Shown here one piece after another: positions 8,004 to 28,596 of a DNA stretch of 28,701 bases (positions are counted from its first letter, which is position 1; each line of letters opens with the position of its first letter). The stretch is taken from positions 1 to 28,701 of the IMG/VR virus record IMGVR_UViG_3300036760_000092; one strand, given 5' to 3'. Under the pieces are notes generated by a model. It did not search any database, had not been told where the DNA came from, and saw nothing but the letters and a program-made list of their open reading frames with translations. The position numbers were made by a program, and so were the translations under genes. This DNA is from a virus.

Positions 8004-8488
8004 GCGATCGCCTGTTCCACGGGTAACGCTTCGACCCGGACATCCAGCGCATAGTGCATGGCCGATGCCGCGTTACTCGCGTAGGCCGTCGCATATGTCA
8101 CCGCCGTGTCCTGATCAACCCGAATCATCACGGCCCCGGACTGCACCGTCGCCGTGGTATTCCCCGTGATCGCCGCCCCGCTGATCGTTTTCGCCACGCC
8201 CTGATCCGTAAATCCAATCGTCACGGTGAGACTCGAGCTGACTCCCGCCGCGGTCACAATCGCCGCATACCAGAACACCCGGAACAGCCCAGATGGAGTC
8301 GGCTGCCTGGTCGTCACGATCGTCGTCGTCGCAATCGCCGCCGACTGGTCCGAGAGACTGACCGTCCAGGTCCGAAGACTGCGATACACCTGCTCGAGCC
8401 AGAGCGCCCAGGCCCGTGTGACGAGCGTCGCCGCCTCGATGAGCACCGAGGACACGGGCGGACGGGAAATCGACGACTGGGACGCCAT
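8000..8488 (-). CDS. Hypothetical tail/virion protein (162 aa) in the P22 gp26 position
   Basis: The start ATG 8488 overlaps the stop of the gp10-like gene, so the pair is coupled. Residues 10-45 are a helix with aromatic and hydrophobic heptads ('IEAATLVTRAWALWLEQVY'). The remainder is Thr/Ser/Val/Ala-rich beta sequence ending in 'AMHYALDVRVEAL'. That pattern is common in small phage tail proteins with a short helical stem and a beta-sandwich head. P22 has its tail needle (gp26) at this position, but this protein is short and lacks a long coiled coil, so equivalence is only positional. Confidence 0.55.
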   Translation of the reverse strand: MASQSSISRPPVSSVLIEAATLVTRAWALWLEQVYRSLRTWTVSLSDQSAAIATTTIVTTRQPTPSGLFRVFWYAAIVTAAGVSSSLTVTIGFTDQGVAKTISGAAITGNTTATVQSGAVMIRVDQDTAVTYATAYASNAASAMHYALDVRVEALPVEQAIA

Positions 8489-25480: not shown

Positions 25481-25934
25481 TCGCCTGCGCGGCCTTGACC
25501 GCACGGGCCTCGTAACTCAAAGAGTCTCGCTGCATCACATGTGTGCAGCGCGTGACAAACGTATGGCCGCGCTTACACACCGCGGTATACCGCCCGTTCG
25601 TCCAATACCCGTCCACATCAGGGCGCCCACAGGTTTTCTTCGCCCCGCCGAGACACGTCTCGAACATCCACCCCGTGTCCTCACACGAGGGGCACTTCAC
25701 CCAGGTGCGCGGGTCCGTCTCAAGCACGACCGAATGTGCGGCATTCTGCACCGACTCGACGACTTCAGCCAGCTTCGGCCAGAACGTCGCCGTCGTTTCG
25801 AGCGCCCGACAGCCAGCCGCCACCGCCGCCTCAGAGAATGGCGTCAGACGCTCCAGATACAGCGACCGGCTTTCGGAGTCCAACACCCGCCCAGTCGCCA
25901 CCGCGAGCCGTTGGAGCGCCTCCAGGCGCGTCAT
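25467..25934 (-). CDS. Putative helicase loader-like replication protein with zinc-binding segment
   Basis: A 155-aa protein overlapping the initiator stop by ATGA. Residues 1-65 are helical ('YLERLTPFSEAAVAAGCRAL', then 'FWPKLAEVVESV'), a pattern like the N-terminal domain of phage helicase loaders such as SPP1 G39P. Residues 81-131 hold 'CPSCEDTGW', C94, C102, C120 with H124, and C130-x-H132, enough for one or two zinc sites. In many phages an initiator gene is followed by a loader that delivers DnaB-type helicase. The assignment is inferred from this order and the N-terminal pattern; sequence proof is lacking. Confidence 0.6.
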   Translation of the reverse strand: MTRLEALQRLAVATGRVLDSESRSLYLERLTPFSEAAVAAGCRALETTATFWPKLAEVVESVQNAAHSVVLETDPRTWVKCPSCEDTGWMFETCLGGAKKTCGRPDVDGYWTNGRYTAVCKRGHTFVTRCTHVMQRDSLSYEARAVKAAQATGQG

Positions 25935-26740
25935 GTCTTGATCCCTCGCGCATGCAGATCGGCCAGTTCAGCCGGCGTGATTTCCTGATAGAACCGACTT
26001 TTGGTCGGCACGGGATTGAACGGCTCATCTTCCCAGCCACGAGCGTTCAGGTAAGAGGCTGGATGGGGGATGAACTGTCCATCATCCTTCACCCAGTCCG
26101 GTTGGTTCTTCTGCCACTCGAGCGCGGTTCGGATGCTCTCAAGTGGAGGCTGTTGCTTAACCCATGCCTTCTCAGCCTGCCCTTTCCCTTTCTTCTTCGG
26201 ATAGAGCGTCCAAAAGGTCAGGAAATCACGGCTCACGGTCAGCGAGCGCAGCGCGCGAGCGGAAGGGGGTTGATCTGTTGCTTTGATCTGATCTGTTTCT
26301 GCTAGTGCTTCTGATGGTGTTACATTGCGTTTCTTTTCGTTACCACCGTTACCGAGCGTTACCGATGCGTTACCAGTGGCTTTTTGCTGGCGAAACCGGC
26401 GAACGCGCTCACGGGTCTGGTCTTGAATGACCGCTCGTGTCACCATGTCGCGATACTTCTTCGCGTTGATGATGATCCAGCCGTCAGGGAATCGTTCAAG
26501 GCGCCGCCCCTCAAACTCCTGATTCGGCGCCTTCAAGTCTGGCCCTTCAAGCTTGGCAATCGCGGCTTCCGCTTGCTTCACGGTCACTCGGGCGCGGAGC
26601 GCGACATTCTCAACCGCCGCGAACCGGCACAACCCTATCTCATCCATCGCGGCGATCATCGTCACCCAGACGATGCGCGTCGGCATGTCTTCGAGCCAGA
26701 CTGACGAGTCGAGAATCTTCGTAAAAAGCTTGTTATACAT
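25931..26740 (-). CDS. Replication initiator (lambda O/DnaD-like organisation)
   Basis: I chose ATG 26740 ('MYNKLFTKILDSSVW'); longer frames overlap the HNH gene. This gives 269 aa. Residues 1-100 look like a winged-helix DNA-binding domain ('RIVWVTMIAAMDEIGLCRF', 'RFPDGWIIINAKKYRD'). Residues 105-165 are a polar linker. Residues 170-238 are the C-terminal module common in phage replication proteins ('FWTLYPKKKGKGQAEKAW', 'FIPHPASYLNARGWEDE'), which usually contacts the helicase or loader. The linker-coding DNA contains four CGTTACC iterons and an AT-rich tract, so the origin is probably inside this gene. No clear Shine-Dalgarno site is seen. Confidence 0.8.
   Translation of the reverse strand: MYNKLFTKILDSSVWLEDMPTRIVWVTMIAAMDEIGLCRFAAVENVALRARVTVKQAEAAIAKLEGPDLKAPNQEFEGRRLERFPDGWIIINAKKYRDMVTRAVIQDQTRERVRRFRQQKATGNASVTLGNGGNEKKRNVTPSEALAETDQIKATDQPPSARALRSLTVSRDFLTFWTLYPKKKGKGQAEKAWVKQQPPLESIRTALEWQKNQPDWVKDDGQFIPHPASYLNARGWEDEPFNPVPTKSRFYQEITPAELADLHARGIKT
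26281..26337. other. AT-rich tract next to the iterons (putative unwinding element)
   Basis: By my count 36 of the 60 bases 26281-26340 are A or T, clearly above the GC-rich surroundings. It lies immediately downstream of the iterons in the direction of the initiator gene, the same iteron-then-AT order as in lambda ori. Confidence 0.55.
26338..26374. repeat. Four iterons (CGTTACC) inside the initiator gene, putative replication origin
   Basis: CGTTACC at 26338, 26347, 26357 and 26368, in steps of 9, 10 and 11 bases, so each lies about one helical turn from the next. On the coding strand the unit is GGTAACG and falls in codons 122-134 of the initiator, in the linker between its two domains. 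A fifth copy lies upstream of the gene. Confidence 0.7.
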
Positions 26741-26753
26741 CGACGTGGGCACT

Positions 26754-26773
26754 GTAACGGAAGATGCGTTACC
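26754..26773. promoter_or_regulatory. Iteron-type dyad upstream of the initiator gene (possible autoregulatory operator)
   Basis: GTAACG (26754-26759) and CGTTAC (26767-26772) form an inverted repeat with a 7-base spacer, 14 bases before the initiator ATG. The right arm is part of GATGCGTTACC (26763-26773), an 11-mer identical to that at 26364-26374 among the internal iterons. It overlaps the HNH stop codon. Confidence 0.5.
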
Positions 26774-27461
26774 TGTCAACCAGCCGGTAGCTCCACACGC
26801 CGCCCCGCTCGTGCCGCTTCTCAATCCGAGACTGACGCGCACACTGCTTACACGACTGATAGCGATAGCCTCGGCGGGTTTTCCATTGCGTATTCTCGTC
26901 CGTGAACTCATGACCATGCACACACTGGCGGTGACGCGCGTAAGGCCCAATCAGACGAACCGTTCGTCTCACGGTGAGACCGCGAGCATAGAGACGCTTT
27001 CGGTAAGCCACGCCTTTGATCACCGCACAGGCGCAACAAAAGCGATCCCCCCTGCCGTCAAGGCCGAGATTGTCCCCAATCAGCGCGTGCCCGCGTTTAC
27101 AATGCGTCTTCTGAGCGTTGAGGGCAGATGGACTGAGGCTCCGGCGGTTATTCTCGTGAGGCGTGACGGGTTCAAGATGGGCCGGATTGACGCAAGACCG
27201 AATGCGGCAAAGATGATCAAGGTGGAGGCCGTGCGGAATCGGCCCGACGTTGATTTCGTAGGACAGCCGATGCGCAAGACGGCTACGGCCATGTTGCCCA
27301 CTCTCGGTAATGTGTCCATACCCTGTATTGAGAATAGCGCCTCGCCATAACCAACACGACTCAGTTTTCTCAACCTTGACCCAAAATCGGTCGATGAGTG
27401 GAACAGGAAACGGGCCATGATGGATCATGAACTTACGGCAGGTTGATGGCGAGATGTCCAC
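26769..27461 (-). CDS. HNH endonuclease with two extra zinc knuckles
   Basis: I chose GTG 27461 because GGAGG lies 9 bases upstream; ATG 27428 is an alternative. Residues 36-68 ('CWLWRGA', 'GYGHI', 'RLAHRLSYE') and 'LDHLCRIRSCVNPAHLEPVT' (81-100) form the HNH fold, with His83, Asn92 and His95 as active-site and Cys85/Cys90 as supporting residues. Two C-x2-GH ... C-x2-C knuckles follow (C121/H125/C142/C145 and C180/H184/C204/C207). Such proteins act as free-standing homing endonucleases or packaging-associated nickases. It lies upstream of the initiator, and its stop codon overlaps the operator-like dyad there. Confidence 0.87.
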   Translation of the reverse strand: MDISPSTCRKFMIHHGPFPVPLIDRFWVKVEKTESCWLWRGAILNTGYGHITESGQHGRSRLAHRLSYEINVGPIPHGLHLDHLCRIRSCVNPAHLEPVTPHENNRRSLSPSALNAQKTHCKRGHALIGDNLGLDGRGDRFCCACAVIKGVAYRKRLYARGLTVRRTVRLIGPYARHRQCVHGHEFTDENTQWKTRRGYRYQSCKQCARQSRIEKRHERGGVWSYRLVDR

Positions 27462-27470
27462 GGCTGCGTG

Positions 27471-27514
27471 CCTCCAAAGTCAGCCGCGCCCCTGCTTTGG
27501 ATCAGGGACGCGGC
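27471..27514 (-). promoter_or_regulatory. Hairpin and alternative SD-masking pairing before the HNH gene
   Basis: A GC-rich hairpin (27483-27494 pairing with 27503-27514, 11 of 12 pairs, 8-base loop) stands in the 107-base gap before the HNH start. Seven loop bases (27495-27501) are perfectly complementary to 27473-27479, which overlaps the GGAGG ribosome site (27471-27475). There is no U-run, so it is not a typical terminator. The rest of the gap (27515-27568) shows nothing convincing. Confidence 0.45.
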
Positions 27515-27568
27515 GGCCAGTCGCTCGCTGCTTCCCGTCGGAAACAGCATCCTCATTCTACCACGCGC

Positions 27569-27763
27569 TCATCGGCGTCCCACGCGCACAATCCACACCC
27601 ACGGCCCGAGTTCGATCTCGATCGCCAGCGAGCGGGAGGCCCACGACACCTGCAGGCCCAGCGCGAAGCCGGGCAGTGTGGCCACCATCGCGTGCAGCAC
27701 GAGCGGGCCGAGAGAGCGGGTCATCGGCTCACCCGCTTCCCCGCTATCGGCGTCACGTTTCAT
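27569..27763 (-). CDS. Small hypothetical protein (64 aa)
   Basis: Starts at ATG 27763, overlapping the upstream stop by ATGA; an internal ATG at residue 14 is an alternative. The central part is hydrophobic ('LVLHAMVATLPGFALGLQVS') but too interrupted for a firm membrane call, and the end is a beta strand 'IEIELGPWVWIVRVGRR'. No family was recognised. Coupling to the neighbour supports expression. Confidence 0.5.
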   Translation of the reverse strand: MKRDADSGEAGEPMTRSLGPLVLHAMVATLPGFALGLQVSWASRSLAIEIELGPWVWIVRVGRR

Positions 27764-28383: not shown

Positions 28384-28596
28384 TCAGGCTCCTCTCGTCG
28401 GGGCGGCGTTCGCACTTCGCGGCGTTCTCGCTTCACGGCGTTCCAGCACGGCGTTCTCGCCAACAGACCCAACCGTGGTGTAGACCTTGAGCTCGCCCAT
28501 AAGCTTGTCGCGCTCGCGCTCGCGCTTCAGCACGATCCCAATCACTAGTAGGTTGTTCTGCTGAAACAACACCCAATCGCCCTCTTTGCACCTCAT
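28384..28596 (-). CDS. Small hypothetical protein with SH3-like N-terminus (70 aa)
   Basis: Starts at ATG 28596, only 3 bases after the stop of the gene cut by the right edge and with GAGG upstream. 'KEGDWVLFQQNNLLVIGIVL' and 'LKVYTTVGSVGENAVLERR' form beta strands with a Gly-Asp turn, similar in style to the 63-aa barrel protein downstream. The C-terminal 20 residues are Arg/Ala-rich. No family was recognised. Confidence 0.58.
   Translation of the reverse strand: MRCKEGDWVLFQQNNLLVIGIVLKRERERDKLMGELKVYTTVGSVGENAVLERREARTPRSANAAPTRGA

Follow-up and report, generated by a model that had tools for sequence, protein, structure and literature searches.

The question raised by this locus is why four copies of one heptamer lie close together inside the coding sequence of a single phage gene. 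The window, by which we mean the whole stretch of DNA analysed, is an entire virus record, a linear 28.7-kb fragment (28,701 bases) of 64% G+C, and its portal, coat and terminase matches identify it as a P22-like fragment. A preliminary description, made from the sequence alone, proposed that the heptamers form a lambda-like replication origin embedded in the gene of its initiator. Our results suggest, with high confidence, that the array is indeed a phage replication origin inside its own initiator gene, of the lambda/SPP1 type, combined with a self-repression like that of plasmid Rep proteins and forming an exchangeable module. Binding, melting, helicase loading and repression are the functions that we infer for its parts. 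The gene and the domains of its product are as follows.

25931..26740, minus strand: initiator gene, 269 aa, start at 26740 (PHROG 9474/9327/270, AlphaFold2, BFVD)
residues ~10-92: winged-helix DNA-binding domain
residues 93-123: long helix
residues 125-160: disordered linker
residues ~170-240: helical replication-initiation/primosomal C-terminal domain

By profile, the product of this gene is an initiator. The PHROG 270, 9474 and 9327 replication initiation/primosomal profiles match its linker and C-terminal part with E=6.7e-18, 4.6e-20 and 7.6e-20, respectively. No Pfam family matches the protein, Phage_rep_O (PF04492) included, and the absence of a match in the binding domain agrees with the earlier suggestion of a diverged or independent initiator-origin pair; nor was an AAA+ domain found in it. 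The AlphaFold2 model, which was built from an eight-sequence alignment and has a mean pLDDT of 69.7, has a single wHTH, followed by a long helix, then a stretch of disorder, and ends in a C-terminal domain made of helices. Searching the PDB with the initiator gave no sequence match and no significant fold match, and the significant fold matches in the BFVD viral structure library include several phage replisome organizers. Relatives of the initiator came from alignment-based searches: a viral_contigs scan with the single protein found no relative, tblastn of the N-terminal 131 residues against the phage collection gave no match, and a seven-sequence alignment of the binding domain was too diverged to scan with. 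The repeats within the linker-coding DNA are listed here in gene direction.

26368..26374, minus strand: iteron 1, GGTAACG in gene direction
26357..26363, minus strand: iteron 2, GGTAACG, in a frame that differs from that of the other three
26347..26353, minus strand: iteron 3, GGTAACG
26338..26344, minus strand: iteron 4, GGTAACG
26316..26324, core 26319-26323, minus strand: degenerate fifth iteron TGTAACACC, with a GTAAC-then-ATCAGA junction common to close relatives

The four exact copies, which read CGTTACC on the plus strand, are present with the spacing given in the preliminary description. Their starts are 11, 10 and 9 bp apart in gene direction, and they fall in two reading frames. They occupy gene positions 367-403 and encode residues 123-135, and their placement in a disordered linker is right because the pLDDT of the AlphaFold2 model is below 50 at residues 125-167. 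Rather than being equally common elsewhere in the genome, CGTTACC occurs six times as an exact copy in the whole 28,701-base record, against 2.0 expected, a count reached in one of 100 shuffles; five of the six are within the initiator gene or in the promoter of that gene, and the sixth is at 8022. In 5000 synonymous-codon shuffles of the initiator gene, no 7-mer occurred four times within 45 bp. The degenerate fifth iteron, a fifth exact copy with an inverted half-copy upstream of the gene and CAGA repeats beyond the array had escaped the preliminary description. Beyond the array in gene direction lie the following elements.

26267..26337, minus strand: A-rich, strand-asymmetric tract (low stability, AT skew, CAGANN tract in relatives)
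26313-26310, 26301-26298, 26295-26292, 26290-26287 and 26277-26274: five CAGA motifs in this tract
26265..26269, minus strand: CCCCC run at the end of the tract (homologues commonly have a C-run at this place, frequently paired with a run of Gs)

The 60 bases past the last iteron, which had been described as AT-rich, are 62% A+T with an AT skew of 0.68, A-rich on the coding strand, and the A-rich tract encodes residues ~136-157. By nearest-neighbour energy only two other 60-bp sites in the record are less stable than these 60 bases (bottom 0.1% of windows). GC skew, one of the checks that had been suggested, proved uninformative: it is negative along the whole record and gives no origin signal, which counts against the origin reading. 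The sequence features of the tract suggest that it is probably an unwinding or single-strand loading element. Here the first CAGA follows the start of the core of the degenerate fifth iteron by 10 bp. Of the 46 binding-domain relatives with arrays, 32 have a CAGA-rich tract close to the repeats (26 of 3196 background windows have the pattern), and in 30 of these 32 it is 3' of the last core; the distance from the last core to the CAGANN tract has a median of 22 bp, with smaller groups near 11 and 33 bp. A frame-independent CAGA tract is ruled out in the binding-domain family. All 32 tracts start in one frame, so the tract could also serve the protein through an amino-acid constraint. Three relatives (L195, L249 and L251) have a tract of the opposite strand sense, of the reverse-complement type TCTGCT, TCTGCTTCTGC, and this suggests that the loading strand can be switched. 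A hairpin at the C-run of this origin was also considered, folds no better than shuffles (z -0.08) and is not claimed as a part of the origin. C-runs of at least five are found just before the C-terminal domain in homologue linkers (for example L095, L104, L143, L146 and L163), at 0.33 per 60 bp versus 0.022 in the background. They often have the form CCCCC..CCCCC..GGGGG, which could form a hairpin, and may be a further origin element.

The iteron also recurs upstream of the start codon, where two features overlap.

26754..26773, no strand assigned: putative autoregulatory operator, inverted iteron half-sites GGTAACG-N7-CGTTAC in gene direction (sequence and covariation)
26751..26779, minus strand: sigma-70-like promoter TTGACA-N17-TACAGT (10/12 consensus positions)

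The fifth exact copy is at 26767-26773, just upstream of the start codon, and the inverted half-copy is at 26754-26758. The promoter is the only promoter-like site in 26200-27600, and the putative operator lies between its hexamers and overlaps the second. Judged by sequence and by the covariation described below, the inverted pair is probably the operator through which the initiator represses its own synthesis. At 26740-26756 only 10 bases separate the end of the -10 hexamer from the start codon, and there is no evident Shine-Dalgarno sequence; with the hexamer so near, the mRNA of the initiator may be almost leaderless. The arrangement looks similar in several relatives.

The repeats extend to most of the binding-domain family. 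A further 80 loci, together with the earlier relatives, gave 66 non-redundant binding-domain genes, 63 of them usable for counting a fixed list of cores (GTAAC, GTCAC, GTCAAC, GTCCC, GTGGAC, GTAAAC, GTAATG and TGCAAC). One core is present at least three times in 46 of the 63 loci; its copies use two or more frames in 45 of these 46, and the spacing is mostly 9-11 bp, so the spacing of 9, 10 and 11 bp seen here is typical of the family. About a quarter (17/63) have no clear array by the fixed core list, which counts against the origin reading. The core of the linker recurs in the 100 bp upstream of the gene, with 74 matched copies at the 46 loci. Shuffling the labels, a procedure that takes related loci as independent, gives 30 matched copies (maximum 51 in 2000), and there are three copies at 400-500 bp upstream. 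The linker core and the upstream core thus change together. For example, L184 has TGTCCC repeats in its linker and TGTCCCG-N8-CGGGACA upstream, and L179 has TGTAATG repeats in its linker and GTAATG-N6-CATTAC upstream. Upstream inverted arms with a core found at least three times in the locus's own linker are present at 42% of loci, compared with 15% when the linkers of other loci are used and 3% for a control upstream segment. However, an exact inverted pair of the locus's own core lies upstream in only 15 of 46 loci, which counts against the operator reading. Two relatives (L181 and L182) are 141-aa proteins with the binding domain only, no in-gene repeats and several GTTAC/GTAAC copies upstream; they are possibly stand-alone regulators derived from initiators.

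The same kind of C-terminal domain is found by profile in only 16 of the 66 binding-domain genes, and the others fall into several clusters and singletons. One illustration is L174: its binding domain is identical to that of our initiator at 79 of 110 positions and its C-terminal part is another one, yet it keeps both the GGTAACG repeats and the CAGA tract; in L175 the exchanged C-terminal part matches an O-like initiator profile. Relatives lacking the repeats while keeping the linker would be hard to reconcile with an embedded origin, and what we find is that the repeats are kept even where the C-terminal domain is a different protein. Across exchanges of the C-terminal domain, the repeats, the A-rich CAGANN tract and their spacing are for the most part retained.

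The exchange is also seen from the other side. From 160 loci in viral and prokaryotic contigs, ten phage records and this gene we obtained 126 non-redundant genes, picked by their C-terminal domain and not by their linker. The N-termini joined to this domain vary widely and include DUF1376, DUF6291, HTH_36, Phage_rep_org_N and Phage_rep_O, the lambda O type, which is carried by three of 120 homologues. Within the 200 bp that directly precede the C-terminal domain, 76% of the 126 genes have a 7-mer at least three times and 40% have one at least four times, as against ~9% and ~1% of flanking windows. With simple repeats set aside, 74 of the 126 linker regions contain an 8-mer at least three times, as do 78 of the 1515 control windows (5%). 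The repeat sequence differs from gene to gene, each gene tending to have its own repeat family. The repeats of 59 of these 74 genes use two or more reading frames, and those of 23 occur in both orientations; the spacings peak at 11 and 21-22 bp, with a helical vector of ~0.6 versus 0.14 for the codon period. Because they occur in several frames and on both strands, with a helical and not a codon period, the linker repeats are, on this sequence pattern, sites at the level of DNA and not of protein. Many phage initiator genes that look unrelated share this layout. One initiator homologue from Bacteroidales (L149) has nine 12-bp tandem copies with CGTACCAC in its linker, 104 bp before the C-terminal domain.

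Pfam matches among 92 downstream neighbours in relatives, in counts that can overlap, are DnaB-like helicase (40), IstB/DnaC-like ATPase (24), lambda P (2) and G39P (1). In our record, which is a fragment, no helicase or loader was recognised in the ORFs tested around the initiator, and this counts against the origin reading; an HNH gene lies upstream of the initiator. Two further repeat clusters are present in the record. Between the portal and large terminase genes (20594-20634) there are about four tandem copies of the 10-bp unit GAGGCCGAAC, possibly a regulatory or packaging-related site, and near the record end (28404-28456) GAACGCC occurs four times at 13-16 bp intervals.

We propose that the winged-helix domain would bind the GGTAACG iterons and that, as these are about one helical turn apart, initiator molecules would stack on one face of the DNA. 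Stacking would strain the adjacent A-rich CAGA tract until it opens, and the C-terminal domain, tethered by a disordered linker for which the origin itself codes, would bring the replicative helicase or the helicase loader to the strand so exposed. The winged-helix domain may also occupy the inverted half-sites in its own promoter and so repress its own synthesis, as the Rep of an iteron plasmid does. With operator, binding domain, iterons and melting tract in one stretch, these parts could travel and diverge together, leaving the C-terminal domain free to be exchanged.

The array might instead consist of extra self-repression sites, a roadblock or sponge that reinforces the promoter operator, with the true origin elsewhere. 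The same core does occur as an inverted pair in the promoter, and the protein is probably a repressor as well. Yet a roadblock would need neither the low-stability tract nor its spacing, and the repeats are a direct, helically phased array that is followed by such a tract at preferred distances, in the order seen in lambda and SPP1 origins. The helicases and loaders that neighbour the gene in relatives also argue for replication, and we consider the roadblock or sponge improbable. These neighbours argue likewise against a centromere-like partition site or a packaging site bound by a wHTH protein. Partition systems also have wHTH or RHH proteins with iteron arrays, which gives the idea some appeal, but none of the nearby ORFs that were tested was recognisable as a partition ATPase, the profiles matched by the protein are replication initiation/primosomal and O-like, and its structural matches are replisome organizers; a partition or packaging site is in our judgement very improbable.

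Selection on the protein could also produce repeats, the DNA pattern being a by-product of a repeated NASVTLGN-like linker, and close relatives do have similar linker peptides (NASVT, GNA). A peptide repeat does not explain why the copies, at spacings of 9, 10 and 11 bp, fall into two frames here, why 45 of 46 binding-domain relatives use two or more frames, why some homologues have copies on both strands, why no synonymous shuffle reproduced the cluster or why the same core is found upstream of the gene. We find this explanation hardly credible. An origin embedded in its initiator gene remains the reading that we prefer, and it can be taken one step further. We speculate, by analogy and tentatively, that the period-6 CAGANN unit may be a distinct origin element, a strand-specific, single-stranded recognition site for the initiator or the loader that lies at whole helical turns (~11, 22 or 33 bp) from the last iteron, a phage counterpart of the DnaA-trio or DnaD element, and that with operator, DNA-binding domain and iterons it may make up one exchangeable cassette open to fusion with many helicase-recruiting domains. 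If so, the specificity of initiators for their sites could be read from sequence across phages.

Embedded origins have long been known in single phages. In the literature searched, where an earlier description is possible, we did not find it described that they are general among 126 diverged initiators, that linker and promoter sites covary, that the CAGANN tract has a preferred phasing or that binding domains and C-terminal domains are exchanged in both directions around the origin. To our knowledge most phage origins are unmapped. If the pattern holds, an origin and the recognition sequence of its initiator could be read from the linker of the gene and cross-checked against the promoter, and low-complexity linkers (AEAEAE, TDTDTD, VTxxN) would be explained as being coded by the origin. 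The covariation supplies many natural pairs of a winged-helix domain and its target site, and with them a direct route to a recognition code.

Among known systems, oriLambda of lambdoid phages lies in the middle of O (PMC7466680). The order and position proposed in the preliminary description hold in this comparison: as in lambda O and the Stx lambdoid phages, the iterons are in the initiator gene between the DNA-binding and partner-binding domains, at 349-433 in lambda O and 367-403 here, and in each an A-rich, strand-asymmetric tract lies 3' of them (68% AT and skew 0.46 in lambda, 62% and 0.68 here). The iteron is unlike that of lambda, as had been noted; GGTAACG is absent from the annotated lambda iterons (L254 2535-2619), and its two matches in the lambda stretch are elsewhere. 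Lambda iterons are 18 bp long and ~20-24 bp apart, whereas those here are 7-mers ~10 bp apart. By Pfam the binding domain here is not Phage_rep_O, no neighbour of the lambda P (helicase loader) type is among the ORFs tested in this fragment, and here, unlike in lambda, an iteron-type operator lies in the initiator's own promoter. In SPP1, according to PMC6316719, oriL is within gene 38 and has direct repeats and an AT-rich unwinding element, with which a helicase loader and the helicase act. The layout is alike, direct repeats and an A-rich unwinding tract inside the initiator gene, but SPP1 has a second origin, oriR, and a G39P-type neighbour was found at only one homologue locus.

Rep proteins of iteron plasmids (R6K pi, F RepE and others) initiate at direct iterons and repress their own synthesis through related half-sites at the rep promoter. 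R6K pi is cited as an autorepressor, and plasmid Reps are described as having two winged-helix domains, in PMC4980987. Half-sites at the initiator promoter are present here, as an inverted pair, and covary with the iterons in relatives; unlike the plasmid Reps, our initiator has one wHTH in its model, an exchangeable C-terminal domain and iterons inside the gene. At bacterial oriC, PMC10201434 and PMC4980987 describe how single-strand recognition at the DnaA-trio and the DnaD recognition element, beside duplex initiator sites, sets the loading strand. Short elements next to duplex initiator sites are common to both, single-strand binding here being an analogy; the unit here is CAGANN, with a period of 6, and it lies next to the sites of a phage initiator; we found no AAA+ domain in this protein. 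Taken by its layout, the locus would work like oriLambda, yet by binding domain, iteron sequence and neighbour it stands outside the lambda O family.
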